This document shows positions 1,375 through 51,815 of a stretch of 64,000 bases of DNA, one piece after another. This DNA comes from an uncultured Clostridia bacterium (lineage in GTDB: Bacteria > Bacillota > Clostridia > Oscillospirales > Acutalibacteraceae): assembly GCA_944384985.1 (NCBI GenBank), contig CALWVM010000003.1, positions 62,001 through 126,000 of the forward strand, written 5' to 3'. The notes beneath the pieces are model-generated. The model was not told the DNA's origin and ran no database searches. It saw only the letters and a program-made list of their open reading frames with translations. The position numbers were made by a program, and so were the translations under genes. How positions within the stretch are numbered: position 1 is the stretch's first letter; each line of letters starts with the position of its first letter.

Positions 1375-1655
1375 AAAAAATCGCCCGCATTCTGCCGTTC
1401 GGCAAAACAGGGGCGAGGAAAATTCCACGCGGTACCACCCTAATTCAGCGGCGAAAGCGCCGCCCTCTGACGACCTCCAACAAGGTCTGACCGGATAACG
1501 AGGTCAACCGTCCTAACCTATGCTTTCAGTCAGGCGACTCCGGAACGAGCTATGCGCAAACCTTCCGTACTGCCTCGCACCACACGGCAGCTCTCTGAAA
1601 CCTTCCGATTTGCCTTATTTCCTTCACAGTCTTTGACAGGCGATATTCTATTGGT
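1375..1655 (-). promoter_or_regulatory. T-box leader of leuA (probable Leu, CTC specifier)
   Basis: Read on the minus strand, the leader contains the invariant T-box sequence GGGTGGTACCGCG (about 1428-1440) followed by a terminator hairpin TCGCCC...GGGCGA with a T-run (about 1375-1416). Upstream is a Stem I with an AGAGAGCTGCC/GGTGCGAGGCAG distal part. In the lower stem, GGAA pairs with TTCC, which places CTC followed by a purine in the specifier position, a leucine codon. Uncharged tRNA-Leu would favour the antiterminator and switch on leuA. Confidence 0.92.
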
Positions 1656-1661
1656 TTTTTT

Positions 1662-1690
1662 ATTATATGCGAACACCGCACGTTTGTCAA
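1662..1690 (-). promoter_or_regulatory. SigA-type promoter of the leuA T-box transcript
   Basis: On the minus strand TTGACA (1685-1690) and TATAAT (1662-1667) are separated by exactly 17 bases, a perfect consensus. Transcription would begin just before the T-box Stem I. Confidence 0.85.
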
Positions 1691-1726
1691 GTGGGAAAAA
1701 TGCAAAATGCCGGCCGCCGCTTCGGC

Positions 1727-2977
1727 TCATTCTTCCACAAGCTCCCAATTTTTGTAGGCGAAGTGCTCCCAAGATGCGGGCACGCCCTGCTCTTTTAACA
1801 CGTCAAGAAGCGCTTGCTCATACACGGTGCTGTTGCTGCCGCAGGCCACGCAAAGCGAGACCTGCTTTCCTAAGCCTACCGCCGAGGTATTGATGCCGCC
1901 GTACCCTGCGCCGAGGTAGATTTCAAACCGCTCGACCATGTCCTTCGCCGGGCCTTCGAGCGTGTGCGCACCGAGATTGGAAAGCGTTGTCGTGATGGAA
2001 TTGCCCGCTACATGGCGATACACCTTACGGATGGCATATTCCCGCACCGCGCGCGGCACCAGACGCACACCGGGGTTGTTGGCGGTCAGATATGTCGTCG
2101 CAACGCCCGCACGCACGCCTTTCTCCTCGGCGGCTGCACGCACTTGGCTATGCACGCTCTGCATGGCGCGGACAAAATCGTCTGCGCATTCCGTCGCATG
2201 GAGCCGGACGTTCGTATAGAACGCGAAGTTGCGCTGGGTATGCGAGCCGTAAAACGCGCGCAGGTCGAGCGGAACGGAAAGGGTCACGGGCAGCTCGCTT
2301 TGCGCGGCATCCGTTGCGCGCAGAATGGCAAAATACACCGCGGCACACAGAAAATCATTGACCGTAAGCCCATGCGGCTTCGTAGCAGGCTTAATATCCG
2401 CAGCCTGCATCGAAAAGCAGGAAAAACGCACATAATATCCGCCGCTTTTCGAAACGGGCAGGCGCATACGGTAGGATTCCTTTTCGAGCAGGGACGCCGC
2501 CTTGGCGGGTTTGTAATACCGCTTGTACGGGTCTTCGAGGTCCTCCGCCTTCGGCACAACCGCAGGCGGCGCGGGTTCGCCCGCCGCAAAGCAGCAATAG
2601 GCGGTCATCAGCGCTTTCAGGAACGTGATTGCCGCTACGCCGTCGGCGTTGGCGTGAAACACATCCATCGCGAGCCGCTTTCCGCGGACATACAGGCGGA
2701 AGCTCGGCTTTTCGGTATCAAACATATCCGGATTTCGGATCATCGGCTCCCCGTAAGAGATTACGTCCAGATCCGACGCTGCCACATGGACATAGCTCAT
2801 AAATGTGCGCCTAAGATGTGAGCACATGATCGGGAACTGCGGCGCGACATGCCGCACCGCACGGCGCAGGAGCGCCCCGTCAATGTCTTCACGCAGCACC
2901 GCGCACAGGCGGAACACATAGCCGCCCATCGCCGGATAGAGGTTGGAAACAGAGTCAATCTTGTATTGTTCGGGCAT
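1727..2977 (-). CDS. condensation-fold acyltransferase (alcohol acetyltransferase-like)
   Basis: A 416-residue protein of the CoA-dependent acyltransferase superfamily, which includes NRPS condensation domains, PapA5 and alcohol acetyltransferases. The catalytic motif HxxxDG is visible as FHANADG near residue 110. Near residue 250 there is VTLSVPLDLRAFYG, resembling the N(x)VPVDLR strand of the superfamily. The ATG has GGGAGGAA upstream. No carrier-protein, adenylation or other NRPS gene is near, so it probably acts alone on a small alcohol, amine or lipid. The acyl donor and acceptor cannot be told from the sequence. Confidence 0.75.
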   Translation of the reverse strand: MPEQYKIDSVSNLYPAMGGYVFRLCAVLREDIDGALLRRAVRHVAPQFPIMCSHLRRTFMSYVHVAASDLDVISYGEPMIRNPDMFDTEKPSFRLYVRGKRLAMDVFHANADGVAAITFLKALMTAYCCFAAGEPAPPAVVPKAEDLEDPYKRYYKPAKAASLLEKESYRMRLPVSKSGGYYVRFSCFSMQAADIKPATKPHGLTVNDFLCAAVYFAILRATDAAQSELPVTLSVPLDLRAFYGSHTQRNFAFYTNVRLHATECADDFVRAMQSVHSQVRAAAEEKGVRAGVATTYLTANNPGVRLVPRAVREYAIRKVYRHVAGNSITTTLSNLGAHTLEGPAKDMVERFEIYLGAGYGGINTSAVGLGKQVSLCVACGSNSTVYEQALLDVLKEQGVPASWEHFAYKNWELVEE

Positions 2978-3065
2978 AAAAATTCCTCCCGCTTTGGAAC
3001 AAGCTTACAACCAGAAAGACGCGACGGGCGGCGTTTTGTCCGCAGATCGCGCAAAGGCTGTATAA

Positions 3066-3094
3066 ATCCTACCACAAACACGCGCCCTTGACAA
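3066..3094 (-). promoter_or_regulatory. probable promoter of the acyltransferase gene
   Basis: Minus strand TTGTCA (3089-3094), 17-base spacer, TAGGAT (3066-3071), about 90 bases before the start codon. Confidence 0.55.
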
Positions 3095-3145
3095 TCCGCT
3101 TTGCACGCAGCGCGAAAAATCGCAAAAATCTTTCGTTTCGCCGCA

Positions 3146-3173
3146 TTGACTTTTTTGAAAAGGGGACTATACT
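3146..3173 (+). promoter_or_regulatory. probable promoter of the EamA permease gene
   Basis: TTGACT (3146-3151), 16-base spacer, TATACT (3168-3173), 37 bases before the chosen start codon. Confidence 0.7.
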
Positions 3174-3210
3174 GGTAGCTGAAAATGCAGCAAAAGGAGG
3201 CCGACCGTTT

Positions 3211-4104
3211 ATGTGGGTCGTTTTTGCATTTTTGTCGGCGCTGTTCGCCGGCGCCACCGCCATCCTTGCCAAATGCGGCATTCAAAATGTCAATTCCAAT
3301 GTGGCGACTGCGCTGCGCACGGGCGTGGTACTCATTTTTTCCTGGCTTATCGTGTTTGTGGTCGGCTCGGAGGACACTATTCCCGATATCGCCCCGCGGA
3401 CTTTTCTGTTTTTGATCCTTTCAGGGCTTGCAACAGGCGGTTCCTGGCTTTTTTATTTCCGCGCGCTGCAGCTCGGCGAGGTCACGAAAGTCGCCGCGGT
3501 GGATAAATTTTCCACTGTTCTCACAATGCTGCTCGCCATGCTCTTTTTGCAGGAGCGCCCCGGCATTTGGCAGCTGGTCGGCGTTGTACTGATCGCCGCC
3601 GGCACGTATCTTATGCTGGACCGCACCGCCAAAAAGATACAGCCTGCAGCCGCGGGAAACGACGCATCGCCGTCCGCGAAGCCGCACTGGCTTTTGTATG
3701 CGCTGCTTTCCGCGTTGTTCGCAAGCCTGACCGCGATCTTCGGGCGGGTCGGGATCACGGACGTGGAATCCAATCTCGGCACCGCGCTGCGCACAGGTGT
3801 GGTGCTTATTTTTGCATGGGGTATTGTATTTGCGCAGCACCGTCAGCGTGAAATCCGCAGCATCGACCGAAAAAGCTGGGTCTTCCTGGTGCTTTCGGGG
3901 CTGACGACGGGCGGTTCATGGCTTTGCTATTACGGCGCCCTGCACGATCCGCAGGCGCTCACGAGCGTCGTTGTGCCCATTGACAAGCTCAGCGTCGTTG
4001 TAACCGTTATCTTTTCGCGCGTGTTCTTAAAAGAACGCCTGTCGCGCCGGGCGCTCTTTGGGCTCGTACTGCTCGTTGCGGGGACGCTTTTGCAGCTGCT
4101 TTGA
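3211..4104 (+). CDS. EamA/DMT-family permease
   Basis: A 297-residue inner-membrane protein of the drug/metabolite transporter superfamily with ten predicted hydrophobic segments in two similar halves. Each half begins with a tract such as LSALFAGATAILAKCGI or LSALFASLTAIFGRVGI and contains a TALRTGVVLIF(S/A)W segment followed by LSGL(A/T)TGGSWL, so the internal duplication is easy to see. The start at 3211 is chosen because AAAGGAGG lies at 3193-3200; an in-frame extension upstream crosses the promoter. The substrate is unknown. Transcribed alone, ending at the hairpin at 4173. Confidence 0.88.
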   Translation: MWVVFAFLSALFAGATAILAKCGIQNVNSNVATALRTGVVLIFSWLIVFVVGSEDTIPDIAPRTFLFLILSGLATGGSWLFYFRALQLGEVTKVAAVDKFSTVLTMLLAMLFLQERPGIWQLVGVVLIAAGTYLMLDRTAKKIQPAAAGNDASPSAKPHWLLYALLSALFASLTAIFGRVGITDVESNLGTALRTGVVLIFAWGIVFAQHRQREIRSIDRKSWVFLVLSGLTTGGSWLCYYGALHDPQALTSVVVPIDKLSVVVTVIFSRVFLKERLSRRALFGLVLLVAGTLLQLL

Positions 4105-4172
4105 TCTTCTTTGCAAGGCGGAGCGCAGCCTCGACACGGTTAGAAGCAGCAGCCTGCCGCCCGGATCACATA

Positions 4173-4216
4173 AAAACCCGACGCCATACTTCCCGTATGG
4201 CGTCGGGTTTTGCTTT
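4173..4216. terminator. bidirectional intrinsic terminator
   Basis: A 16-bp perfect stem AAACCCGACGCCATAC / GTATGGCGTCGGGTTT with loop TTCC and T/A runs on both sides. It can serve the permease gene on the plus strand and the membrane protein gene on the minus strand. Confidence 0.9.
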
Positions 4217-4301
4217 TGCATACAAGTCTTTGCATCTTGTAGAGGGGCGTCGAGCGTTTCTGCACCGCGGTTCCGCAAAATCGTTTGCGTCTCCTCTCCC
4301 C

Positions 4302-5141
4302 TTACGCCGGGCTGTTTGCCAGCCGCAGAAAAACGATTGGTTTTTGCGTCTGCGGGGTTAGATGATTTTTGTCTAAAACGAGTTTAGCGACGCTCGCCAT
4401 GCTCTGTTTGGAATACGGCGCAACATACAAAATCGGGAAAAGGAGGACACAGAGCAGCAGCCACGGTGCAAAGCGAAGCCGCTCGCGCGCACAGGCAAAG
4501 CACAGTCCCTGCGAAAGCCGTCGGCTCTCGCGCAGCGCTCCGACCACGCCGCGCGCAGGGTCGAGCGTCAAAAGCGCATCACAGAAAACGTATTTCTGCA
4601 CAGCGGCGAATCCGAAATACAACCCCGTCAAAAGCAATGCGGCAAGCCCCGCACACGAAGCGTAAAACAGATGCGGCGAAAGCCCTGTCGTGCGCAGCGC
4701 CAGCCACAGTGCGCCCGCCCCGACGAGAAACGGCAAAAGGTATCCGGCAAAATGCAGCAGCACAAGCAGCCGCCGCAGCCAGAACAAATACATGAGCTTA
4801 ATGGCTTCACGCGGCGAAAGACGGGTAAAATAGGCGGAAAAGGGCTGCACGTGCACCGCGTTTTTAAAAAACCAGCGCGCCGAGCAAAAGGATACCAGCG
4901 CATAAAGCGCCGCCGAAAACAGAGCGCCGAGGCCGAACAGCGCGTACAGCGCAACGGTCAGATACAGGTTTTCACCGGGGTCCATCAAGCGATGCAGTAC
5001 GGCGAGCATGGATAGGCTGATGAGAAGCCCTGCAAACAGCACGAGCTTTGCTGCGGCACCGAACAGCCACACCGCGGTCATGCACCCCCGATTTTGAAGC
5101 ATCCGTTTTTGCGCCGCAAGTCGTGCGTGTGCAAGCGTCAT
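4302..5141 (-). CDS. polytopic membrane protein of unknown function
   Basis: A 279-residue hydrophobic protein with about six membrane segments, for example AAAKLVLFAGLLISLSML, LYALFGLGALFSAALYALV, LLVLLHFAGYLLPFLV, AGLAALLLTGLYFGFAAV and FAPWLLLCVLLFPILYVA. Its overall pattern resembles DUF975-type membrane proteins, but I do not see a diagnostic motif. The ATG at 5139-5141 is preferred to a GTG three codons upstream because GGAGGTG sits at 5148-5154. It is convergent with the EamA gene and divergent from glmS. Confidence 0.75.
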   Translation of the reverse strand: MTLAHARLAAQKRMLQNRGCMTAVWLFGAAAKLVLFAGLLISLSMLAVLHRLMDPGENLYLTVALYALFGLGALFSAALYALVSFCSARWFFKNAVHVQPFSAYFTRLSPREAIKLMYLFWLRRLLVLLHFAGYLLPFLVGAGALWLALRTTGLSPHLFYASCAGLAALLLTGLYFGFAAVQKYVFCDALLTLDPARGVVGALRESRRLSQGLCFACARERLRFAPWLLLCVLLFPILYVAPYSKQSMASVAKLVLDKNHLTPQTQKPIVFLRLANSPA

Positions 5142-5233
5142 AAAAAGCACCTCCGCAAAGGATTTCCTGTATTCAGTATGCCCCTTTTTTGTATGGATCT
5201 ATGCTTTTTTCCACAAAATTCCACTTTTTTGAG

Positions 5234-5263
5234 TTGACAAAGCTATGCATTATTGTATATAAT
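5234..5263 (+). promoter_or_regulatory. promoter of the glmS ribozyme transcript
   Basis: TTGACA (5234-5239), 18-base spacer, TATAAT (5258-5263). It gives a transcript that starts roughly 85 bases before the ribozyme cleavage site. Confidence 0.8.
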
Positions 5264-5332
5264 GCAGATAAAGCGGATGGGTGAAGTGCGCGCCGCCGCT
5301 GAATTCGGAAGAAAGGAGAACGCCCTTTTGAA

Positions 5333-5715
5333 ATTTTCGGGTGCCATCGAAAATAGCGCCGGGCCTGCCCTGGGTAACCGCTGATACATTGGGCGTGTGC
5401 GGATTGACGAACAGATTTTTCGTCAGAGTGCATAAGCCTTTGCCGCCCATACTGGTGTATGAGCAAAAAGGATTGTGTGCTATGGCGGAAAATATGTCAT
5501 CAAGACGTGCGCTTCCAATGTATCAGGGGTTACCGACGCACTGTTGCCGCCATGCGGTATTCAGGCAGGTGACGAGGAAGAAGTCATCGAACATTTCGGC
5601 GGATGCTTCTTGCCCCGTAAGTGCGGGGGCAGGGAGGCGCGCAAAAGAGACAGCGCGCCTCCCGCGTGTTTTGCAAAAGCGGGCAGCAATGCCCGTCACA
5701 AACAAGCGCGACGCA
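5333..5715 (+). ncRNA. glmS ribozyme: glmS ribozyme/riboswitch with a large P1 insertion
   Basis: Self-cleaving RNA activated by glucosamine-6-phosphate. The conserved cleavage-site core AGCGCC lies at 5355-5360, so cleavage is expected between 5355 and 5356. The second conserved block, TGACGAGG, then ATCGAACATTTCGGCGGATG, lies at 5570-5605 and matches the family core. P1 is CCTGCC (5364-5369) with GGCAGG (5564-5569). The P1 loop, usually short, is about 194 bases here. Downstream, GGGAGGCGCGC (5632-5642) pairs perfectly with GCGCGCCTCCC (5653-5663). A 7-bp hairpin (ATTTTCG/CGAAAAT, 5333-5354) ends one base before the cleavage site. Confidence 0.93.
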
Positions 5716-5747
5716 CAAATCTATTGTTTGTAAAGGAAAAACCAAAT

Positions 5748-7574
5748 ATGTGTGGAATTGTTGGTTATATCGGAGAAAACAGTGCTTCGCCGATATTGCT
5801 GGACGGCCTTCGAAAGCTGGAGTACCGCGGGTACGACTCGGCAGGAATTGCTGTGGTCGGAGACGACGGCGTGCGCGTAGTCAAGACGCGCGGGCGCATT
5901 GCGGATCTTGACCACAAGCTGCAGGAAGTAGGCGGCTTGACGGGCTCGGTCGGCATCGGGCACACACGCTGGGCAACGCACGGCGCGCCCAACGACGTCA
6001 ACGCCCACCCGCACACGAGCACGAACGGCCGCGTGACGCTGGTGCACAACGGCATCATCGAGAATTACACAGCGATCCAGTCCATGCTCGAGGCGGCGGG
6101 CTACCGCTTCATTTCCCAAACGGACACCGAGGTGCTCGCACAGCTTTTCGACTACTACTATAAAGGCGACGCGCTCGAGGCGATGTGCAGCGTGATGCGC
6201 ACGGTGCGCGGCTCTTACGCCGTAGCCGTGCTCACAAGCGACCGCCCCGACCGCATCATCGCGGCAAAAAAAGACAGCCCGCTCATCGTTGGGCGCGGCG
6301 GCGGGGAAAACTTCCTCGCATCGGATATTCCCGCCATCCTCAAATACACGCGTGACTGCTTCCTGCTGGACGACGGCGAGATCGCGATTTTAACCAGAGG
6401 CGAGCCGAAGTTTTATAATGCGGCGGGGCAGCGCGTATATAAAGACGTCTACCACGTCACCTGGGACGCGGAGTCGGCGGAAAAGGGCGGTTACGCCCAT
6501 TTCATGAAAAAGGAGATCGCCGAACAGCCCAAAGCCGTGCGCGACACGCTGACGCCGCGCATTGAGGACGGCAAGGTTTCGATCCCCGAACTGCGCTTGA
6601 CCGATGCGGACATCCGCGCCATCGGCACCATCCATATCGTCGCCTGCGGCAGCGCCTGGCATGTGGGCACGGCGGCAAGATACATTCTGGAAGCGGCGGC
6701 GGGCATTCCGTGTGAAACGGATCTCGCCAGCGAATTCCGCTACCGCAACCCCATCGTGCGCAAGGGTGATCTGTGTATCGTCATCAGCCAGTCCGGCGAG
6801 ACCGCCGACACGCTGGCGGCGCTGCGGGAAGCCAAGGCGCGCGGCGCCCATGTGCTTTCCATCGTCAACGTCGTGGCGAGCACCATCGCACGCGAGAGCG
6901 ACGACGTGATCTACACGCTTGCCGGCCCCGAGATCGCCGTAGCGACGACCAAAGCGTTTTCCGCGCAGCTCGCCGTTGTGTATCTTCTGGCGCTGCGGTT
7001 TGCACGCGCCATGGGCACGCCGTTCTCGCAACGTGAATCCGAGCTTTGCGAGGAACTTTTGCAGCTGCCCGCGCAAATCGAATCCCTGTTGTCGCTCGAC
7101 GACGACATGGCGGCGCTCGCGCGGCAGTTTGCCGCGGCAAAGCAGGTGTTTTTCATCGGGCGCGGGCTCGACTACGCCATCGCGCTGGAAGGCTCGTTAA
7201 AGCTCAAGGAAATCTCCTACCTGCAATCCGAAGCGTACGCGGCGGGCGAACTCAAGCACGGCACGATTTCGCTCATTGAAGAGGGCACACCTGTTGTGGC
7301 GATCGCCACCCAGGACGCGCTGTTCGAAAAGATGCTCGGCAACATCAAAGAAGTGCACGCGCGCGGCGCACGGGTGATCGCGCTGGTATCCGAAGACAAT
7401 GCGGAGATCCGCGAGCTTGCGGATTATGTCATCCCCATCCCGCAGGCGGATTCGATGCTCAAGCCCTCGCTCGACGTGATTCCGCTGCAGCTGTTCGCCT
7501 ATTATATGGCGCTTGAGCGCGGCTGCGACGTGGATAAACCCCGCAACCTCGCAAAATCCGTGACGGTGGAATAA
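5748..7574 (+). CDS. glmS: glutamine-fructose-6-phosphate aminotransferase (isomerizing)
   Basis: Makes glucosamine-6-phosphate from fructose-6-phosphate and glutamine for peptidoglycan precursors. The 608 residues are full length. The N-terminus MCGIVGYIG gives the catalytic Cys2 of the glutaminase domain, with RWATHGAP and NGIIENY further on. Two SIS domains follow (CGSAWHVG, SQSGETADT, GRGLDYAIALEGSLKLKEIS), and the C-terminus DKPRNLAKSVTVE is characteristic. The start is fixed by the need for Cys2; the reading frame is open upstream through the ribozyme but that is not coding. Expression should fall when GlcN6P activates the ribozyme. Confidence 0.98.
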   Translation: MCGIVGYIGENSASPILLDGLRKLEYRGYDSAGIAVVGDDGVRVVKTRGRIADLDHKLQEVGGLTGSVGIGHTRWATHGAPNDVNAHPHTSTNGRVTLVHNGIIENYTAIQSMLEAAGYRFISQTDTEVLAQLFDYYYKGDALEAMCSVMRTVRGSYAVAVLTSDRPDRIIAAKKDSPLIVGRGGGENFLASDIPAILKYTRDCFLLDDGEIAILTRGEPKFYNAAGQRVYKDVYHVTWDAESAEKGGYAHFMKKEIAEQPKAVRDTLTPRIEDGKVSIPELRLTDADIRAIGTIHIVACGSAWHVGTAARYILEAAAGIPCETDLASEFRYRNPIVRKGDLCIVISQSGETADTLAALREAKARGAHVLSIVNVVASTIARESDDVIYTLAGPEIAVATTKAFSAQLAVVYLLALRFARAMGTPFSQRESELCEELLQLPAQIESLLSLDDDMAALARQFAAAKQVFFIGRGLDYAIALEGSLKLKEISYLQSEAYAAGELKHGTISLIEEGTPVVAIATQDALFEKMLGNIKEVHARGARVIALVSEDNAEIRELADYVIPIPQADSMLKPSLDVIPLQLFAYYMALERGCDVDKPRNLAKSVTVE

Positions 7575-42239: not shown

Positions 42240-44546
42240 TTAATCGCGGTATTCTTCCATGACGAACGCTTCCAAAACGTCGCCTTCTTTGATGTCATTG
42301 AATTTTTCGAGCCCGATGCCGCACTCATAGCCCTGCGCGACCTCTTTGACGTCGTCCTTGAAACGTTTGAGCGAGGCAATCGCATCTTCGGCAATGACCA
42401 CCCCGTCGCGCACGACGCGGATCTGGGCATTGCGCGTGACCTTGCCTTCAAGCACATAGGAACCCGCGATCATCCCCGCCGAAGAGAGCTTGAACACATT
42501 GCGCACCTCGGCGCGGCCAAGCTGTACTTCGCGGTATTTCGGCGCAAGCATGCCCTTGATGGCGGCTTCGATCTCTTCAATGCAGTCATAAATGACGCGG
42601 TACATGCGCATATCGATGCCGTCGCGTTCGGCAAGCTGCTGCGCCACCGGGTCGGGCCGCACGTTGAAGCCGACGATGATGGCGTTCGAGGCGTTGGCAA
42701 GCATGACGTCGGATTCGCTGATCGCGCCGACGCCGCCGTGAATGACCTTGACGTGGACTTCGTCGTTCGAAAGTTTTTCGAGGCTCTGGCGGACCGCTTC
42801 CACGGAGCCTTGCACGTCTGCCTTGACGATGATGTCGAGTTCCTTGATCTCGCCCTCGTTGATGGAGGCGAACAGGTTGTCAAGCGTGACCTTATGGAAC
42901 TGCTTGAACTCCTCTTCCTTGGCTTCGCGTTTGCGCTGTTCCACGAGCTCGCGCGCAAGCTTCTCGTCAGAGACCGCGTCAAAGGTATCGCCCGCCTGCG
43001 GCACATCCACAAGGCCGGTGATCTCGACCGGGACCGAAGGACCGGCTTCCTGCACGCGCTGCCCGCGGTCGTTGGTCATCACGCGCACGCGGCCGACCGA
43101 CATGCCCGCGACGATGGTGTCACCGGTTTTGAGCGTCCCGTTCTGCACGAGCAGCGTTGCCACGGGGCCGCGGCCTTTGTCCAGCCGCGCTTCAATGACC
43201 ACGCCTTTGCCGGGGCGGTTCGGGTTTGCTTTGAGCTCTTTAATCTCCGCCACAAGCAGGATCGCTTCCAGCAGTTTGTCGATATTCTGATGCGTTTTGG
43301 CGGAAACCGGTACGCAGATGGTGTCACCGCCCCATTCTTCGGGGATCAACTCATATTCGGTGAGCTGCTGCATGATCTTTTCGGTCGAAGCGCCGGGTTT
43401 ATCCATTTTGTTGATGGCGACGATGATACTGACGTTCGCCGCTTTCGCATGGTTGATGGCTTCGATGGTCTGCGGCATGATGCCGTCATCCGCTGCCACC
43501 ACCAGCACGGCGATGTCCGTCGCCTGCGCGCCGCGCGCACGCATAGCCGTAAACGCCGCGTGGCCAGGGGTGTCGAGGAAGGTGATCTTTTGGCCGTCCA
43601 CATCCACGCGATATGCGCCGATGTGCTGCGTGATGCCGCCCGCCTCGGTCTCGGTGACCGCCGTGTGGCGGATGGCGTCGAGCAGCGACGTCTTGCCGTG
43701 GTCAACGTGGCCCATGACCACCACGACCGGGTCGCGCGGGACAAGGTCTTCTTCGGCATCCTCGGTGTCGTCGATGATGCGTTCCTCAATGGTGACAACG
43801 ACCTCTTTTTCGACCTTTGCGCCGAGTTCCGTGGCGACGATTGCCGCCGTCTCGTAGTCGATGACCTCGTTGACGGTCGCCATCTGCCCCAAAGAGAGCA
43901 GCTTTTTGATGACCTCCGCCGCTGTCATTTTCAGGCGGGAGGCAAGTTCGCCGACGGTGATCTCATCGGGAATGGTGACCTTGATCGGCTTTTTCGCGCG
44001 CTCAGCGGCGATGCGCGCCATGCGCTCTTTTTCGGTCTCGCGTTTGCGCGAACGCATGCCCTGCCGGCGGTACTGCTGCGATTTTTGCTTCAGCTTCTGC
44101 TTGTGCACGACATTGTCGCCGTTGTTGCGGTTGTTGACGGGCGCGATATTTTCATAGCGCTCGTTGTATTTGTCGAGTTCGACATTGCCCGCGCGCGTAT
44201 CCACATGGCGCACCGCGCCTTTCGTGCGCGCCTGCATGGGCTTTGCCGGGTCCTTCGCCGGTTTCGCGGGCGCGGCATCCTTTTTGCCTGCCGGCGCCGC
44301 TTTCGGGGCTTCCGGCGCTTTTTCCTTTTTCGGTGCGGCGGTGCGCTGCATGGCAAAGTAGCTGTCTAAGGACTCGACCGCATTTTCAGCAGTCAGCACG
44401 TCGAACAGCACATCCAGTTCCTTTTCCTCCAGCGCGGTCTGCGACTTCTTTTCGCCGGGGAAGTATTTCCCTAACAAATCCGCCAGCTTTTTGCTGGGCA
44501 TATTAAAATCTTTAGCTGCTTCATGGAGTTTGTATTTTTTCGTCAT
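42240..44546 (-). CDS. infB: translation initiation factor IF-2
   Basis: GTPase that brings initiator tRNA to the 30S subunit. The 768 residues comprise an N-terminal IF2_N module (1-50), an Ala/Pro/Lys-rich linker (70-150), a second IF2_N module (about 195-245), the GTPase with G1 GHVDHGKTS (279-287), G3 DTPGH and G4 NKMD, and the C-terminal beta-barrel domains. The ATG at 44546 has GGGAGGG upstream; an earlier ATG is out of frame. The start lies 4 bases after the ylxQ stop. Confidence 0.97.
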
Positions 44547-44550
44547 CCTA

Positions 44551-44868
44551 TCATTCCCTCCCGATGTGGTCTTGTATGCTCGCGGCAAAGCCTGCGTCGT
44601 TAACGGTGAGCACCGCCGTGGGTTTTGCGCCGATCGCCTTGCCGAGCTCCTGCATCGTCCATGCGCTGCGGCGCAGCGTGGTGTTCGGGGAAAAACGAGC
44701 TGTGGCGCGTTCCATCTCCCCGCCGAGACGCACAGAGGCGTCAGACGCAAGCAGGCACAGGCACGCCGATCCGTTTTGTATCGCGCCGAGCGCCGCGTCA
44801 TGCCCGACGCTCAAGCACCCCGCGCGGCGGGCGATCCCCAAAAGCCCGCTTGCTTTGTTATCCGTCAC
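44551..44868 (-). CDS. ylxQ: L7Ae-family RNA-binding protein (YlxQ)
   Basis: A 105-residue protein of the L7Ae/L30e fold: [34 protein letters not shown] and [15 protein letters not shown]. Such proteins bind kink-turn RNA. It overlaps ylxR by 11 bases and precedes infB, the usual nusA-operon order. Confidence 0.9.
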
Positions 44869-45127
44869 GCTGCAGCGCCTCCTCCAATTCGGCGTAAACG
44901 CTGTCGGGGACAGTGCAGCCGAAAACGCGGTCGAGCCGCTTCGCTTTTTTCGCTTTCAAAAGGCAGCCGACATCGGGGCAGATGTAAGCGCCTCTGCCCG
45001 GTTTTTTGCCGGTCGTGTCCAGGCTGATGACGCCGTCGGGCGATTTGACCACCCGCACGAGTTCACGCTTCGGCTTTTGCGCGCCGCAGCCCGTGCAAAG
45101 GCGCATCGGTATGTTTTTGGTTTTCAC
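44858..45127 (-). CDS. ylxR: YlxR/RnpM (DUF448) RNA-binding protein
   Basis: An 89-residue protein with the family signatures MRLCTGCGAQKPKRELVRVV and GRGAYICPDVGCLLKAKK. Recent work on the family names it RnpM, a modulator of RNase P. It stands between nusA and ylxQ, as is usual. Confidence 0.92.
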   Translation of the reverse strand: MKTKNIPMRLCTGCGAQKPKRELVRVVKSPDGVISLDTTGKKPGRGAYICPDVGCLLKAKKAKRLDRVFGCTVPDSVYAELEEALQRDG

Positions 45128-45166
45128 GCTGTCAGCTCCCTTGTTGCCTGCAAATAGGACGGGCCT

Positions 45167-46216
45167 TTAGCCCTCGTAAAACCCACTTTCGGGCTTGATG
45201 TCGATCTTCCAGCCGGTAAGGCGCGCCGCAAGGCGGGCGTTCTGCCCTTTGTTGCCGATGGCAAGCGAAAGCTGGTTGTCGGGTACGGTCGCCTGGCAGG
45301 AACGCGCTTCGGCATCCACGATCTCCACCTTGAGCACCTTAGCGGGTGCGAGCGCCGCGGCGACAAATTCCTGCGGGTCGTCGCTGTATACAACGATGTC
45401 GATCTTCTCGCCGCCGAGTTCCTCGACGATCTTATTGACACGCGCGCCGCGCGGCCCGATGCACGCGCCGACGGCGTCTACGTTTTCATCCTTGCTTTGC
45501 ACGGCGATCTTCGTGCGCGCGCCCGCTTCCCGCGAGACCGCTTCGATCGTCACGGTGCCGTCATAGATTTCGGGCACTTCGGTTTCAAACAGCCGTTTGA
45601 CAAGGCCGGGGTGCGTGCGCGAGATCATGGCCTTCGGCCCTTTTTCGGTGTCGCGGACATCCACGATAAAGACCTTCGTCAGGCTGCCTTCGGTGAACGT
45701 CTCGCCGGGGACCTGCTCGCCTTTCGGGAGGATCGCCTCCGCCTTGCCGATTTCGAGCGTCACGTTGCCGGTCACAGGGTCGATGCGCTGCACCTTCGCC
45801 GTGACAAGCTCCTGCTGTTTGGACTGGAATTCCATCATGATCTGCCCGCGCTCCGCATCGCGGATGCCCTGGCGGATGACGTGCTTTGCCGTCTGCGCCG
45901 CGATCCGGCCGAAGTCTTTCGCTTCGAGCGCGATCTGGATCTCGTCGCCCACCGCCGCGTCGGGCTTATACTTCTGCGCCTCTTCGACGGTGATTTCGCA
46001 GTCCGGGTCCTCGACCGTTTCCACGACCTTCTTGTGCAGGAACACGTTCATGATGCTATTTTCGGGGTCGATCTCGCAGGAGATGACATCCTTGCCGTTG
46101 TAATCCTTTTTGACTGCGACCAAAATCGCCGCCTTGATCTTTTCATATAGATATTCCGCAGGGATGCCCTTTTCTTTTTCCAGCGCTTTGACCGCTTCAA
46201 AAAACTCCTTGTTCAT
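45167..46216 (-). CDS. nusA: transcription termination/antitermination protein NusA
   Basis: Binds RNA polymerase and nascent RNA. The 349 residues contain the N-terminal polymerase-binding domain (EFFEAVKALEKEKGIPAEYL), an S1 domain (VQRIDPVTGNVTLEIGKAEA), and two KH domains (GACIGPRGARVNKIVEELGGEKID, QLSLAIGNKGQNARLAARLTGWKIDI). No C-terminal acidic repeats, as in Bacillota. It starts 2 bases after the rimP stop. Confidence 0.97.
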   Translation of the reverse strand: MNKEFFEAVKALEKEKGIPAEYLYEKIKAAILVAVKKDYNGKDVISCEIDPENSIMNVFLHKKVVETVEDPDCEITVEEAQKYKPDAAVGDEIQIALEAKDFGRIAAQTAKHVIRQGIRDAERGQIMMEFQSKQQELVTAKVQRIDPVTGNVTLEIGKAEAILPKGEQVPGETFTEGSLTKVFIVDVRDTEKGPKAMISRTHPGLVKRLFETEVPEIYDGTVTIEAVSREAGARTKIAVQSKDENVDAVGACIGPRGARVNKIVEELGGEKIDIVVYSDDPQEFVAAALAPAKVLKVEIVDAEARSCQATVPDNQLSLAIGNKGQNARLAARLTGWKIDIKPESGFYEG

Positions 46217-46218
46217 CT

Positions 46219-46698
46219 TTAAAAACCTCCAAAATCATCGAGCTTTACCCACGATGCTTCTTTTTTGTCAAACATACGAACGGCGCCGTCGTCGCACTGC
46301 ACGGTCACAACGCCGTCCGCGTAATCTTCCAGAACGCCCTTGTATTCACGTCTGCCGTCCACCGCACGGATGAACCGCACCATCACGTCCGCACCAAGGT
46401 AGCGTTCAAAGTGAAAGTCCCGCGTCAGTTCGCGTTCGATCCCCGGGGACTGCACCTGCAAGCTGTAACTGCGGTCGATGGGGTCCGCTTCATCGAGCGG
46501 TTCGTCGAGCGCCTGACTCATCGCCACGCAGTCTTCAATCGAGACGGCGCTGTCTTCTTTATCAATAATGATGCGCAGGTACCACTCGGTCCCCTCTTTC
46601 AAAAAGCGCACATCCCAAAGCACCAGTCCCAGCGCCTTTGCGATCGGTTCGGCGATCTCCCAGACCACCGCCGCCGTATTCTGCTTTTTTTCCGCCAT
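46219..46698 (-). CDS. rimP: ribosome maturation factor RimP
   Basis: Needed for 30S subunit maturation. The 159-residue protein shows LGLVLWDVRFLKEGTEWYLR, ISIEDC-like VSIEDCVAMSQALDEPLDE and the conserved LQVQSPGIERELTRDFHFER. The ATG at 46698 marks the conserved N-terminus, but the strong AGGAGA lies 33 bases upstream, separated by a GC-rich hairpin. First gene of the operon running to ribF. Confidence 0.94.
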   Translation of the reverse strand: MAEKKQNTAAVVWEIAEPIAKALGLVLWDVRFLKEGTEWYLRIIIDKEDSAVSIEDCVAMSQALDEPLDEADPIDRSYSLQVQSPGIERELTRDFHFERYLGADVMVRFIRAVDGRREYKGVLEDYADGVVTVQCDDGAVRMFDKKEASWVKLDDFGGF

Positions 46699-46710
46699 AT
46701 CGGTCTTTGG

Positions 46711-46788
46711 CGCGCCGACTTCCGCGGCGCGTCTCCTTTCTCCCACAAAGTCCTGACAAAACGAGGAGAGCGGGTCGCCCCACTCTCC
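46711..46788 (-). promoter_or_regulatory. structured 5' leader of rimP
   Basis: Two hairpins lie in the leader. GGAGAGTGGG/CCCGCTCTCC (46765-46788, one G-T pair, loop GCGA) is near the 5' end. CGCGCCG/CGGCGCG (46711-46731) lies between the ribosome site AAAGGAGA (46732-46739) and the ATG, shortening the effective spacing from 33 to about 12 bases when folded. Confidence 0.6.
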
Positions 46789-46815
46789 AATCGCAGCCTG
46801 TATTCTTACTTTGCC

Positions 46816-46844
46816 ATCATAGCACAAGTGCCCATAAATTGCAA
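46816..46844 (-). promoter_or_regulatory. promoter of the rimP-nusA-infB operon
   Basis: Minus strand TTGCAA (46839-46844), 17-base spacer, TATGAT (46816-46821). Confidence 0.7.
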
Positions 46845-46858
46845 GCCTTTTTTCCCGC

Positions 46859-47053
46859 TCACAGGTCGTCGGCGTCCTGCACGGGGTTTTCGGTGTGGTC
46901 CTTCGGCGTGCCGGTGTAGCTGCCGAGCACGTCGGTGCGGGCGGTCTCGGTGTCAAAGCCGTGCCAGATGTCGGCGATCTCCTCGGTGACCTCGCTGATC
47001 TTTTCGACCGCGCGCTGCGACGGTTTTTTATTCTTATCCTTTTCCTTTGGCAT
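46859..47053 (-). CDS. small acidic protein, unknown function
   Basis: A 64-residue soluble protein: a Lys-rich start (PKEKDKNKKPSQRAV), a predicted helix (EKISEVTEEIADIWHGF) and an acidic tail (TENPVQDADDL). AGGAG lies 8 bases before the ATG. It stands alone upstream of the rimP promoter, transcribed in the same direction. No family recognised. Confidence 0.65.
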   Translation of the reverse strand: MPKEKDKNKKPSQRAVEKISEVTEEIADIWHGFDTETARTDVLGSYTGTPKDHTENPVQDADDL

Positions 47054-47175
47054 TTTTGTGCTCCTTTCCGCTTTTGCGCGATTTCGGGCGTTCACCCAAA
47101 TTAGCTTTTGCGGAAAAGGCGCAAACATACGCACGCTTTCGGTTTTGCGCATCTAATATCTAACATCTAATACCT

Positions 47176-47203
47176 AAAACGGGCAGCCGAAGCTGCCCGT
47201 TTT
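47176..47203 (-). terminator. terminator of the rlmB-mgtC operon
   Basis: AAAACGGGCAGC / GCTGCCCGTTTT with loop CGAA, beginning at the mgtC stop codon. Confidence 0.88.
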
Positions 47204-47925
47204 CAGTCCAGATACACGTCTACGACGTTTTCGTCCGCCTGCAGGGTGGAGACGATGATCTTCAGTGCGTTGTCCGTTTTCGGGAAGATGATCGCCTTGA
47301 TCGTGGAGGTGTCCTTTTTTCTGCGGAACTTGGAATCGTTGTCGTAAAGGATCTCCATGGAGTGCACCACCGTGCCCGTGCGCTTGATGAGGCTGGAGAT
47401 CTTCGGTACCTGCTCGGCGAGGTCCTTGACCTCGATATACAGCGCCTTGCCTGCCTTGCCGCGGACAACGACTTTTTTGAGCGAATTGAGCGTCATATAG
47501 ATGACAAAGGTCGCGACCACGGCCCCCGTTACGAAGCCTGCGCCAACGGCGATGCCGATGCACGAGACCGCCCAGAGGCTTGCCGCCGTGGTAAGTCCCT
47601 TCACGGAAAAGCCCTCGCGCAAAATGGTGCCCGCGCCTAAAAAACCGATGCCGCTGACGACCTGCGCCGCCATACGGGTGATGTCTACGTTCGCCTGGTT
47701 CGCATAGGTTTTAGAGATGTATACGGAGGTCAGCATAATCAGCGTCGAACCGACCGCCACAAGGATGTGCGTGCGGAAACCCGCCGGACGGTGCGAGTGC
47801 TCGCGCTCAAAGCCGATGATGCCGCTGAGCAGGACACTTAAAGCCAGTTTCCACGCCGCGTCCAGCGCAAAGCGGAATTCCTGGTTGTTCCAAAGCCATA
47901 GCGCGGCTTCTTTGAGCCATTCCAT
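47203..47925 (-). CDS. mgtC: MgtC/SapB-family membrane protein
   Basis: A 240-residue protein. The membrane part has the family hallmark GFEREHSHRPAGFRTHILV, then GSTLIMLTSVYIS, VVSGIGFLGAGTILREG and GLTTAASLWAVSCIGIAVG. A cytoplasmic ACT-like domain follows (YIEVKDLAEQVPKIS, ADENVVDVYLD). MgtC proteins are linked to magnesium limitation, membrane potential and, in pathogens, survival in macrophages. AAAGGAGG precedes the start. It is 13 bases after a degenerate P-type ATPase gene. Confidence 0.92.
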   Translation of the reverse strand: MEWLKEAALWLWNNQEFRFALDAAWKLALSVLLSGIIGFEREHSHRPAGFRTHILVAVGSTLIMLTSVYISKTYANQANVDITRMAAQVVSGIGFLGAGTILREGFSVKGLTTAASLWAVSCIGIAVGAGFVTGAVVATFVIYMTLNSLKKVVVRGKAGKALYIEVKDLAEQVPKISSLIKRTGTVVHSMEILYDNDSKFRRKKDTSTIKAIIFPKTDNALKIIVSTLQADENVVDVYLD

Positions 47926-47938
47926 TGGGGCACCTCCT

Positions 47939-50900
47939 TTACACTTTTTTGAATTTCGGAATCAGCAGCACGATGGCCGCCCAGAACAGTTCGAATACCA
48001 GAAGCTCGGCAACGCCCGCCTGCCCGAGCCCCGAGAAAAAGCTGAGCACCGCCATGAGCAATACACTGAGCCCTACGCCGATGTAGAGCAGGACCTGTGA
48101 CAGGCGGTATTTTTCCTCAAGCACAAACGCCGCCAAAAACGCGCGCAGGGCAGCGGCGGTCGAGCCGCTGTGCAAAATTGCGCAGGGTTCCGCGCGCGGG
48201 GGCTCTTCGCAGAGCTCGCGGAACATATCACCCGCGACGGGATTGATGATCTTCACAAGGTTATGCGGCAGGTCAAAATACTGCTCCACAAGCCCTTCGG
48301 TAATGTTCGGGTCCGACGTGCGCAGCAAAATGGTCACACCGTATTTTTCGAGCCGCTGTAAATAGACGGAGATCTGCTTGTCGGACGCATACTCCACTAC
48401 GAACAGCGCGGCAGTCTTGCCCTCGACGGCGAGGTACAGCACCTGGCAGCCGTCTTTTTTGAACCGCTGTTCTTCTTCGCGCGACGGGGCGTCCACATTG
48501 TGCTTCAAAAGCAGGTCGCGGCTGCCCACGAGCACGCGCTGGTTATAGATCCAGCCCGAACAGCCGAGCCGTTCTTCATAGACCAGAGATTCAACAGGCG
48601 GCAGAATCTCGCGTTTGGAAAGAATGACTGCATCAAACACGTCGGAAAGCGTCCCGCCCGACTGGATGGTCATGGCGGCCGTGTACAAAAGCGCCTCGTC
48701 CACGCGCATCTTATGATAGGTCTTCATGCCGCACAGCCGGCACTGGCAGCCGTCGAACAGCTCGGCGGCATCGAGCACCACAGCGTTTGCCGTGACCGCA
48801 TCGAACGCGGCGTCATAGCTGCTCAAAAGCGAGTTCTGCGCACGCAGGCGGCGGTTGACGCTGCCAAACGCGGCGGCAGAACCCGGCACGGCGGCAAGCG
48901 GAAGTCCCACGAGCACCGTGGCGGCAATGGCGGAAACGCCGGCGAACACATCGTTGCGCACGAAGCTCGTCACAGCACCGATGAGAAAAGCGGCAATAAG
49001 CACCGCGGGGAGTGCGTTTGCGTATACATCGAAATCGCGGTTGTTGGTTTTGGAAACACGCACGAAATCCGACGGAAATGCGATCTTTCTGGAATAGCGC
49101 ACGTCCGGGTCCCCAAGCAAAAGCCCGCGCCCGATCTCAAACGCCGTCTCCGGCGACTCGATGCGCGCAACGCTCGAAAAGCGCCCGCTGCGTTCGGCGA
49201 CCATCATAAAGTCGGCAATATCTTCTTTCAGTTTGCGGTGTCGGCCCGCAAAATACAGGGTCAAAAGCAGAAACGCCGGCGCGGAATAGAGCGGGATTTC
49301 CGTCAGCCGTTCGGGATACGCCAAAGAGATGGCTGCCTGCGCGAGCGCGAACAGCAACGCAACGAACAGGCCGGTTTCCGCCGTTACGCGGCGGCGCGCC
49401 ATCCCGACAAATGCCGTTTTCAACTGCGGCAGGCAAATGAGGAACCCGCCAAACAGCAGCACCAGATGCAGGGCACTGTACACTGCGGGGCTACCACCCA
49501 AAAGGGCAAAGCTCCCCGTATATTGCACGAGCAGCGCCGACGCGGCAGCAGCAAGCAAAAACACAAGGCTCAGCCACAGGCGCACGGTAAAGCCGCGTTT
49601 TTCCGAAAGAAAAATATCAAAAACCGCTTGTGCGTCTTTCGGTCCGTAAAACTCACGAAGCACCCGCACCGGCTCGTTGTCGGGCTTCGGCACGCGGCGT
49701 CTGCGGCGGCGAGACGTTTGTGCGTCTTCGGGCGGTACGTCTTCATCGAAATCCGCAGCATCCGCCTGCGGCACATCGGGTATGGCGCGGGTTCGCGCGT
49801 CATCCTCGTCTGTCGGCTCGTCGTCAACCGGCGCTTCCCCTGCGGCAGGCGCGTCGTCCGCTGTCTCCAGCCCCGGAAACAGACGGAATCCCTTCGCCCG
49901 CTCGCGGCGGCGCACACGAAGCGAGCGTTCCGCCGTCTCCTCGTCGATCTGCTCCACGGGATCTTCGCGGTTGTCAAAGCCTTCCAGCACCATCTGATTT
50001 TCCAGCTGCTCGTCCGCATCCGCCTGCGGCGCGGCGTAGGCTTTTAAATCACCCGCCTGCACGTCCGATTTCTCCTGCTCGGCCTTCAAAACCGCTTCGG
50101 GCGTTACGAGGGTCGGGATCGCTTCCAGTTCGCCTTGGGCTGCCGACCCCGACTTCCGCACGATCACGCCGGGCTTTTCGATCGTCTTCGGCGGCAACTG
50201 TTCCAAAAGCCGCCTGTGGTCCTGCGTCTTTTCAAGGTTCTGCTGCGGCCGGTTCAAAAAACGGTCGCGCTGGGCATCCGTTTCCATGACATGCCGTTTG
50301 GGCACAGGATCGAACTCACCCGTCGTGGTGCGTAAGACACGGTTGCCGATTTGATGCTCGATCCCGCTGTTATGTACGGCATGGGACTCCACTTCGTTGA
50401 ATACGCGGGTCTTTTCAATAGAGATCTGCCCCGGCAGCGCCTCGGGCGGGGTCTCCTGCGCCTCTTCCTGCGGTTTTTCCGCCTGCGGGGTCGCGCCCGC
50501 AAGCAAAGGTTCGACTTCGCCGTCTTCCGCCTCTGCGCGCGGCGGTCTGTCTGAATGTGCATGGGGTTTTGCTTCGGGCGACGATTCTTCGGCAGTTTCC
50601 AGCATGGCGGCGCGGCGCGCCGCCTCCTTTAAGGACGTCCGCTTTTTCGGCGGCTGCTCCACCGGTTTTTCCGGCGCCGGCTTTTCGGAAGGCTGTGCGC
50701 CGGCTGGCACTTTCACTTGCGCCTTTGGCGCAGACGGTTCGGTATGCGCGGCCTTGCGCGGCGGCTCGGTGGGTTCGGGATGCGTCGCATTAGGCGTTTC
50801 GGGGCGCGGCGAAGCCGCCCTGCCGTTTTGTGCGGCGGGCTTTTCTTCATCGGCAAGCAGCGCGTCCACTTCGGAAAGCGACCAGACCTTGCTCCCTTTT

Positions 50901-50974
50901 TCGCCGTGCAGGTGCTTGACGTCGTCTAAAATCTTATCCACCGCAAGCCCCGACAGGATATCCTTTTGCGACAT
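47939..50974 (-). CDS. degenerate P-type (P1B-like) ATPase with long disordered N-terminus
   Basis: A 1011-residue protein. Residues 1-435 are Pro/Ala/Glu-rich and predicted disordered, ending in a basic run SRRRRRRVPKP. Residues 465-1008 have eight membrane segments in the order 4+2+2, the topology of P1B heavy-metal ATPases. Where such pumps have DKTGT this protein reads VVLDAAELF (D735). The actuator TGE, the Cys-Pro-Cys segment and the GDGxND hinge are absent. Yet N-domain-like NQRVLVGSRDLL (811-822), YLAVEGK, LLRTSDPN (like TGDN, 883-890) and HSGST (935-939) remain aligned in order. It should therefore not pump by the normal cycle. Three bases after rlmB and 13 before mgtC. Confidence 0.8.
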   Translation of the reverse strand: MSQKDILSGLAVDKILDDVKHLHGEKGSKVWSLSEVDALLADEEKPAAQNGRAASPRPETPNATHPEPTEPPRKAAHTEPSAPKAQVKVPAGAQPSEKPAPEKPVEQPPKKRTSLKEAARRAAMLETAEESSPEAKPHAHSDRPPRAEAEDGEVEPLLAGATPQAEKPQEEAQETPPEALPGQISIEKTRVFNEVESHAVHNSGIEHQIGNRVLRTTTGEFDPVPKRHVMETDAQRDRFLNRPQQNLEKTQDHRRLLEQLPPKTIEKPGVIVRKSGSAAQGELEAIPTLVTPEAVLKAEQEKSDVQAGDLKAYAAPQADADEQLENQMVLEGFDNREDPVEQIDEETAERSLRVRRRERAKGFRLFPGLETADDAPAAGEAPVDDEPTDEDDARTRAIPDVPQADAADFDEDVPPEDAQTSRRRRRRVPKPDNEPVRVLREFYGPKDAQAVFDIFLSEKRGFTVRLWLSLVFLLAAAASALLVQYTGSFALLGGSPAVYSALHLVLLFGGFLICLPQLKTAFVGMARRRVTAETGLFVALLFALAQAAISLAYPERLTEIPLYSAPAFLLLTLYFAGRHRKLKEDIADFMMVAERSGRFSSVARIESPETAFEIGRGLLLGDPDVRYSRKIAFPSDFVRVSKTNNRDFDVYANALPAVLIAAFLIGAVTSFVRNDVFAGVSAIAATVLVGLPLAAVPGSAAAFGSVNRRLRAQNSLLSSYDAAFDAVTANAVVLDAAELFDGCQCRLCGMKTYHKMRVDEALLYTAAMTIQSGGTLSDVFDAVILSKREILPPVESLVYEERLGCSGWIYNQRVLVGSRDLLLKHNVDAPSREEEQRFKKDGCQVLYLAVEGKTAALFVVEYASDKQISVYLQRLEKYGVTILLRTSDPNITEGLVEQYFDLPHNLVKIINPVAGDMFRELCEEPPRAEPCAILHSGSTAAALRAFLAAFVLEEKYRLSQVLLYIGVGLSVLLMAVLSFFSGLGQAGVAELLVFELFWAAIVLLIPKFKKV

Positions 50975-50977
50975 GGT

Positions 50978-51739
50978 TTACACCTCAGCCTCCAGAGATC
51001 TGCGCGAAGAAATTTCATATAGCAAAATGCCCGCCGCCACCGAGGCGTTGAGCGAATTGATCTTCCCCTTCATGGGCAAAGAAACGATAAAATCGCATTT
51101 TTCCCGCACGAGCCGCCCGAGGCCCTTGCCCTCTGCGCCGACCACCAGCGCGACGCCGCCGGAAAAATCCGTTTGTTTGTAGTCCGTTCCGTCCATATCC
51201 GCGCCGTAGACCCAGCAACCGTGCGCTTTAAGCTCATCGAGCGCCGCCGGGAGATTCGGCACGCGGGCGACACGGATGTACTCGAGCGCACCCGCCGAGG
51301 TCTTGCCGACCGTGGCGGAAAGCGAAGCGCTGCGGCGTTTGGGGATAATCACCCCGTGCGCACCCGCCGCTTCCGCAGTGCGTAAGATCGCGCCGAGGTT
51401 GTGGGGGTCCTCCAGTTCGTCGCAGACGACCACAAACGGCGGCTCGCCCCGCTCTTCGGCAACGGCGAGGATCTCTTCCAAAGTCGCATAGGTGTGCGCC
51501 GCGGCAAACGCCGCCACGCCCTGATGGTTCGCGCCATCGCAGAGCGCATCGAGCTTTTTGCGGTCCGTCTCCTTAACGACTGCACCGTTTTCGCGGCACG
51601 CCGCCATCAAGCGGCGGACAGCCGGGGCGTGCTCCCCGCGCAGCACGTAGAGCGTGTCGATCGCGCGGCCCGCCCGCAGCGCTTCCGCTACGGCGTTGCG
51701 CCCGATGATGAGATCTTCGTTTTTCGCATTCCGCTGCAT
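50978..51739 (-). CDS. rlmB: 23S rRNA 2'-O-methyltransferase, TrmH/SpoU family (RlmB-like)
   Basis: A 253-residue SPOUT enzyme that methylates a guanosine ribose in 23S rRNA. It has the N-terminal substrate-binding domain (IIGRNAVAEALRAGRAIDTLYV) and the knotted domain (CDELEDPHNLGAILRTAEAAG, VVGAEGKGLGRLV, SLPMKGKINSLNASVAAGILLYE). The ATG at 51739 with AAAGGAG 7 bases upstream is preferred to the ATG at 51760, which precedes that site. First gene of the operon with the degenerate ATPase and mgtC. Confidence 0.93.
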   Translation of the reverse strand: MQRNAKNEDLIIGRNAVAEALRAGRAIDTLYVLRGEHAPAVRRLMAACRENGAVVKETDRKKLDALCDGANHQGVAAFAAAHTYATLEEILAVAEERGEPPFVVVCDELEDPHNLGAILRTAEAAGAHGVIIPKRRSASLSATVGKTSAGALEYIRVARVPNLPAALDELKAHGCWVYGADMDGTDYKQTDFSGGVALVVGAEGKGLGRLVREKCDFIVSLPMKGKINSLNASVAAGILLYEISSRRSLEAEV

Positions 51740-51786
51740 AGTCCGCTCCTTTGACGCCATTGCGAAATGGGTATAGTTATTATAAG

Positions 51787-51815
51787 ATTATACCATATCT
51801 TGTGTGCTTGTACAA
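51787..51815 (-). promoter_or_regulatory. promoter of the rlmB operon
   Basis: Minus strand TTGTAC (51810-51815), 17-base spacer, TATAAT (51787-51792). Confidence 0.75.

Follow-up and report, generated by a model that had tools for sequence, protein, structure and literature searches.

The pseudo-P1B-ATPase gene and its product

The window analysed in this study is a 64,000-nucleotide stretch of DNA from an uncultured Clostridia bacterium of the order Oscillospirales, referred to below as the order. Its minus strand carries, at 47939-50974, a gene whose product combines a long acidic tail with a core resembling that of P1B-type metal pumps (Table 1); we call this product the pseudo-P1B-ATPase. 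An earlier note, made from the letters of the window, had described it as a degenerate P1B-type ATPase fused to a 435-residue disordered region. The reading frame of 1011 codons is real: constraint on its core is similar to that on the adjacent rlmB gene, and on the same comparison of nonsynonymous to synonymous substitution rates (dN/dS, see below) a chance reading frame was rejected. An open frame of 515 amino acids on the opposite strand (48500-50047, plus strand) is probably a shadow of the codon use of the gene.

The helices and domains of the protein are named here after what we take to be the layout of the copper pump LpCopA. The earlier note had counted eight membrane segments in 4+2+2 order. 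Hydropathy at a cut of 1.5 shows seven of them in the window protein, and the eighth is supplied by the alignment with M2. Among the 115 other members of the family described below, 105 have 8 to 10 segments by hydropathy at a laxer cut, and the alignment with LpCopA supports eight. HMA domains are usual in P1B pumps at the place where the window protein bears its acidic tail.

Table 1. Features of the pseudo-P1B-ATPase gene, its product and its immediate surroundings (positions in the window).
Feature	Position	Strand	Basis or remark
pseudo-P1B-ATPase gene	47939..50974	-	1011 amino acids, ATG to stop
acidic low-complexity tail, N-terminal, residues 1-435	49670..50974	-	own sequence and family tails
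short motif LAVDKILDDV near the N-terminus	50918..50947	-	the window's copy of the loose family motif
second short motif WSLSEVDALL	50855..50884	-	similar motif in 21/115 tails
membrane block MA, MB, M1, M2, residues ~460-578	49241..49597	-	profile alignment with LpCopA 75-217, and hydropathy
putative actuator-region remnant, shrunken, without TGE, residues ~579-650	49025..49240	-	52 profile positions vs 118 residues in LpCopA
M3 and M4, residues 654-694	48893..49015	-	CPC replaced; P692 of CPC kept in 101/116
P/N domain remnant, residues ~695-945	48140..48892	-	contains most conserved positions
DAAELF (735-740) at the place of the DKTGT phosphorylation site	48755..48772	-	Lys at 736 in 0/116; Phe740 in 103/116
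TSDPNIT (886-892) at the place of TGDN	48299..48319	-	D888 in 115/116; N890 in 107/116
M5 and M6, residues 961-1005, including W998	47960..48094	-	hydropathy and family alignment
rlmB, 23S rRNA G2251 2'-O-methyltransferase	50978..51760	-	3 bases upstream of the pseudo-P1B gene; TIGR00186 246 bits, cut-off 160
MgtC/SapB-family gene	47203..47925	-	13 bases downstream of the pseudo-P1B gene; models matched below cut-offs
promoter-like site TGTACA - 16 - TATAAT	51787..51814	-	just upstream of rlmB; consensus match only

Descent from P1B metal pumps

With the window protein as a single query, the Pfam scan gave no match, the NCBIfam CopA model matched residues 655-893 at E=1.3e-11, far below its curated cut-off, and among PDB sequences LpCopA was matched (3rfu, 4.2e-9). 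A family profile (A1) built from 26 members aligned with LpCopA at E=7.3e-35 in three collinear pieces: profile positions 24-164 on LpCopA 75-217 (MA to M2), 217-492 on 336-613 (M3 and M4, then P, N and P), and 503-547 on 656-700 (M5), the last piece being weak (0.1 bits) and not significant alone. In the gaps separating these pieces the family is shorter than LpCopA: the actuator region has about 52 residues instead of 118, and the GDGxND segment about 10 instead of 42. Alignment of the family with nine P1B pumps by hhalign gave a probability of 99.9% over 557 columns. When 26 members were scanned singly, the CopA model was matched by 17 and the heavy-metal pump model by 15 at 1e-3. At E<=1, a P1B model was matched by nine of ten full-length members, in one case no better than 0.21, and none of the ten reached a cut-off; the tenth (L031) matched no P1B model, and Pfam returned nothing above cut-off for any of the ten.

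The motif remnants proposed in the earlier note lie where it had placed them: VVLDAAELF aligns to the DKTGT site, NQRVLVGSRDLL to a stretch of the N domain and LLRTSDPN to TGDN. The fourth remnant, HSGST, does align to the stretch before M5; it is not a counterpart of GDGxND, that segment being deleted.

In a tree of the M3-to-P region, a branch with 100/100 support separates all 31 members used from 24 pumps. Because the family branches are long, with a long-branch warning (L043 beside the pumps), and the root is a midpoint root only, a single origin is consistent with the tree rather than proven. Taken together, the alignments show by sequence that the family is derived from P1B metal pumps. 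With P1B-ATPases such as LpCopA (3rfu), archaeal CopA (3j09) and a zinc pump (4umv) it shares collinear homology over MA-M2, M3-M4, the P and N domains and M5. It differs from them by the absence of DKTGT, TGE, CPC, the SEHP histidine and GDGxND, by its shrunken actuator region and acidic tail, and by the family-fixed residues Y862, N890 and W998.

Loss of the catalytic motifs

Motifs were compared between 116 aligned members (the window included) and 24 true pumps. At the position of the phosphorylated aspartate, Asp is found in 52/116 members versus 24/24 pumps, and the lysine that follows it in all 24 pumps (position 736) is found in none of the members. The family reading at this site is approximately [DTS][DA]x[DE][LIV]FP, with Asp at 736 in 62 members and Ala in 32 (including the window), D or E at 738 in 106, and F740 in 103. 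At the aligned actuator columns, which are empty or different, TGE occurs in 0/116 members versus 24/24 pumps, and the same holds for GDG at its aligned columns. Away from these sites, a bare TGE is found in 10/116 family cores and a bare GDG in 5/116. The TGDN motif is replaced by TxDxN, in which D888 (115/116) and N890 (107/116) are the retained letters. The CPx site of M4 reads L-P-L in the window; its proline, P692, is kept in 101/116 members, and cysteine is rare there (2/116 at 691, 6/116 at 693). In the column of the SEHP histidine, Gly (62) and Ser (26) prevail among the 116, His is outside the six commonest residues, and the proline is kept in 37. The second glycine of the N-domain GxG is present in 113/116 and the first in 29/116.

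The claim that KTGT, CPC and GDGxND are missing was thus borne out at the aligned places in the window. That TGE is missing is true of the actuator site, the tripeptide itself being present at residue 218, in the tail. None of the 116 aligned members carries an intact DKTGT at the same position, and no homologue with active motifs at the same place was found across the samples of the order, class and phylum. A letter search of the last 575 residues of all 63 further rows (61 distinct genomes) likewise found no DKTGT, TGDN, GDGxND or TGES/TGEP. Among loci L001-L055, DKTG occurs once, in the tail of L020. All 26 true P1B pumps that were checked have DKTGT, TGD and GDGxND, and 25 have TGES/TGEP, the exception being a 502-residue protein. 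Judging from the aligned motifs, the phospho-aspartate cycle cannot run in the family as it does in pumps.

The family has fixed residues of its own. Y862 and W998 are each present in 113/116 members, at positions where all 24 pumps carry Asp and Leu, respectively. F740, D888 and N890 are conserved too, at the frequencies given above. Most of the conserved positions sit in the cytoplasmic P/N remnant.

Distribution and selection

Most of the sampled genomes are draft assemblies. Close relatives include eight loci (L001-L008) with 32-79% identity; one is labelled Candidatus Fimenecus, which we presume to belong to the Oscillospirales in GTDB (the taxonomy consulted gives Clostridia and no order), and most of the others are uncultured Clostridia. 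Single-sequence searches matched 57 of 59 genomes of relatives at E<=1e-3, some of the weak matches being far relatives, as settled by the profile search. With the profile, the family was found at E<=1e-40 in 275/295 genomes of the order, 220/226 of those of high quality, and in 143/148 genera. One match was obtained in 272 of the 275 genomes, with about four candidates scored per genome. In a sample of the class, all nine genomes of the order reached 330-686 bits along almost the whole length; the best matches in 236 genomes outside the order did not exceed 129.5 bits (13 genomes had none) and, among the matches listed, were confined to the pump-like middle (~186-508). In a sample of the phylum, which shares some genomes with the class sample, 3/299 genomes matched at 1e-40, all three from the order, with 276 of the unmatched genomes outside the listing. 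The window gene has a full-length profile match far above those of true pumps, rlmB upstream, and the usual single copy.

Twenty of the 295 genomes had no match, six of them of high quality. Five of these six (G375, G335, G361, G404 and G544) are also without RlmB above the TIGR00186 cut-off and have family matches at pump level only; in the sixth (G302), rlmB is followed by the start of the gene, which is cut off by the end of the contig. Assembly gaps explain these apparent absences at least as well as loss.

The family core is under purifying selection. In six pairwise comparisons within the genus, dN/dS was 0.065-0.185 for the core, 0.144-0.313 for the tail and 0.101-0.153 for rlmB, synonymous change being near saturation in the farther three. 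An in-frame TGA interrupts the gene, among the matches listed, in L048 (G057) and G545:C178. The homology to P1B pumps, the motif loss in 116/116 members, the purifying selection, the usually single copy, a tree consistent with one origin and the fixed residues of the family together sustain the proposal of the earlier note that a pseudo-pump has been retained for another job.

The acidic tail

The tail before the first hydrophobic segment has a median length of 326 residues (range 23-903) in the 115 members other than the window, and is net negative in 101 of them. It reaches at least about 80 residues in 114 of the 115, so that the tail is not unique to the window gene. A loose motif, approximately [FYL]S[LIV][DE][DE]IL.E[FYV], is present in 34/115 tails, always starting at residues 5-103; over 200 shuffles the average was 0.03 tails. 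A strict form is present in 15. Since the pattern was drawn up after the sequences had been seen and the rows are related, the shuffle control flatters the motif, and its constant position close to the N-terminus speaks for it more strongly. A further motif resembling WSLSEVDALL recurs in 21/115 tails. The first motif was not seen in any other protein, either among 2595 open reading frames of 116 sequences, where the one outside match is the front part of the gene of L048, which is split, or among 1202 open reading frames from 400 kb of one genome.

Gene neighbourhood

After removal of duplicates, 124 family loci were available, 118 with at least 200 bases upstream and six with too little. In 117 of the 118, rlmB is found on the same strand no more than 1300 bases upstream, and is directly adjacent in nearly all. 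In the exception (L029 in G036, 1469-5784), the family gene stands directly behind the genes for L21, L27 (named by eye) and ObgE, and rlmB is elsewhere in the genome. This L21/L27/ObgE cluster is another ribosome-related cluster.

The MgtC-family gene of the window occupies the downstream place in 10/70 loci, all of the window's genus. It is followed in the window, on the same strand, by RimP and NusA genes (model matches) within 42240-47152; genes resembling YlxR, L7Ae and IF2 were seen by eye in the same interval and on the same strand. Elsewhere, the nearest downstream gene, by reading, is EF-G-like in 10/59 loci over seven families (L039, L044, L045, L048, L117, L128, L131, L147, L148 and L150). 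Two of these were confirmed by NCBIfam, above a subfamily cut-off and below that of the main EF-G equivalog. Era is nearest downstream in two loci (one confirmed) and YebC in one (confirmed). Most of the other downstream neighbours look unrelated; named by eye, they include nitroreductase, Lon, a B12 radical-SAM protein and ribulose-phosphate epimerase. Altogether, the neighbours suggest, if only modestly, a connection with ribosome maturation or translation.

Discussion

Near-universal retention in the order despite the lost pumping parts makes a different and useful job probable. As most conserved positions fall in the P/N remnant and hardly any member is without the tail, the protein may be a membrane-bound binding module. 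It belongs to an old family of pseudoenzymes that arose from a P1B pump. The reading that we favour, with a probability of about 0.58, is that it acts in the membrane as a scaffold or receptor without catalysis, its function being read from anatomy and linkage. The membrane domain would serve as an anchor, the P/N remnant (F740, Y862, D888, N890) as a docking or ligand-binding module, and the variable acidic tail would reach into the cytoplasm and present a partner with short motifs close to its end. The earlier note had cast this long arm as the output. Its near universality, its mostly acidic character and the motif in 34/115 tails speak for this; as L036 is nearly tailless, the tail cannot be the sole working part. 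The constancy of rlmB as a neighbour, with EF-G-like, Era, ObgE/L21, YebC and RimP/NusA genes recurring, leads us to suggest tentatively that the partner acts in ribosome maturation or translation at the membrane. It is a more doubtful proposition that the protein is an order-wide non-catalytic hub that couples this process to the membrane; RlmB would be its constant operon partner, and the acidic tail, carrying the N-terminal motif, would provide the reach.

Several observations weigh against the scaffold or receptor. Scaffold is partly a default label for dead enzymes. L036, the sole member with a tail below 80 residues, is almost without one, and 81 of the 115 tails are without the motif in the form searched. 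The linkage to rlmB could reflect mere co-transcription, and the downstream neighbours vary among the 59 loci, most of them being non-ribosomal. At several membrane positions (503, 533, 546, 990 and 995; window ~47990-49468, minus strand) the majority of members carry a polar residue, although no single one is fixed: Gln or His at 546 in 77/116, Gln or Glu at 995 in 71/116, and Asp or Glu at 533, at a segment edge, in 85/116. These make a transport role possible.

Such a role would be that of an ATP-independent channel or passive transporter using the retained membrane domain, whose segments align with those of pumps and keep the M4 proline, and the MgtC gene behind it in the window's genus fits the same idea. 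We consider it improbable, as, by weight, no one polar residue deep within a membrane segment is shared by half of the members and the conserved positions are mostly in the cytoplasmic remnant. It is also unlikely that the protein regulates true P1B pumps or pairs with them as a dimer partner, or that it is a metal sensor derived from a pump. Inactive relatives often regulate their active kin, and true P1B pumps occur in all 147 genomes of the order that were searched (144 above the curated cut-off); they also occur in 14/14 control genomes (13 above cut-off), so this co-occurrence says little. Moreover, CPC is gone, neither Cys nor His occurs at any position with conservation of at least one half, and in the flanks examined the recurrent neighbours are rlmB and translation genes.

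The remodelled P domain could also have gained a new phosphohydrolase or ligand-dependent activity. Acidic residues at 736 and 738 cluster with D888 around the former active site, where many members have a DxD, which is typical of HAD phosphatases. The segment aligned to the Mg-binding GDGxND of pumps is deleted, and position 736 is alanine in 32/116 members, the window among them; such an activity appears quite unlikely. As for a decaying pseudogene, the lost catalytic motifs and the stops inside the genes of G057 and G545 would suit it; the low dN/dS of the core and the retention of the gene across the order refute this reading.

Two further known systems resemble the family in part. Human TMEM94/ERMA, the nearest case in the literature searched, is a P-type-like membrane protein with A-, P- and N-like domains and without TGES, whose six cryo-EM structures revealed no catalytic cycle (PMC12134183). 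It is eukaryotic, has ten helices, is closest to SPCA and keeps its A-like domain, in all of which it differs from the present family (PMC12134183). It bound an ATP analogue with micromolar affinity and its authors leave activity possible (PMC12134183), and another report makes the opposing claim that TMEM94 is the magnesium ATPase of the endoplasmic reticulum (PMC13322241).

The other likeness is to operons of the MgtC/MgtB type, as a P-type-ATPase-like gene stands beside an MgtC-family gene in the window's genus. Here the pump relative is P1B-derived and the MgtC neighbour is limited to that genus among the 70 loci, whereas in MgtC/MgtB operons MgtB is an active pump of another P-type class.

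P-type ATPases are among the best-studied pumps. In the open-licence papers searched, covering bacterial pseudo- or degenerate P-type ATPases, rlmB with a P-type ATPase and order-specific families, no bacterial case was found, nor was a bacterial pseudoenzyme family among these pumps found described. The gene is a candidate core gene of the order, being near-universal there, unmatched outside the order in the sampled genomes, and without a Pfam or NCBIfam family above cut-off. Its linkage to rlmB provides the first testable lead on the role of the pseudo-P1B family. If the hub proposal, which we regard as doubtful, were true, a whole bacterial order would have converted a metal pump into a membrane hub, non-catalytic and nearly universal, for ribosome maturation or translation.

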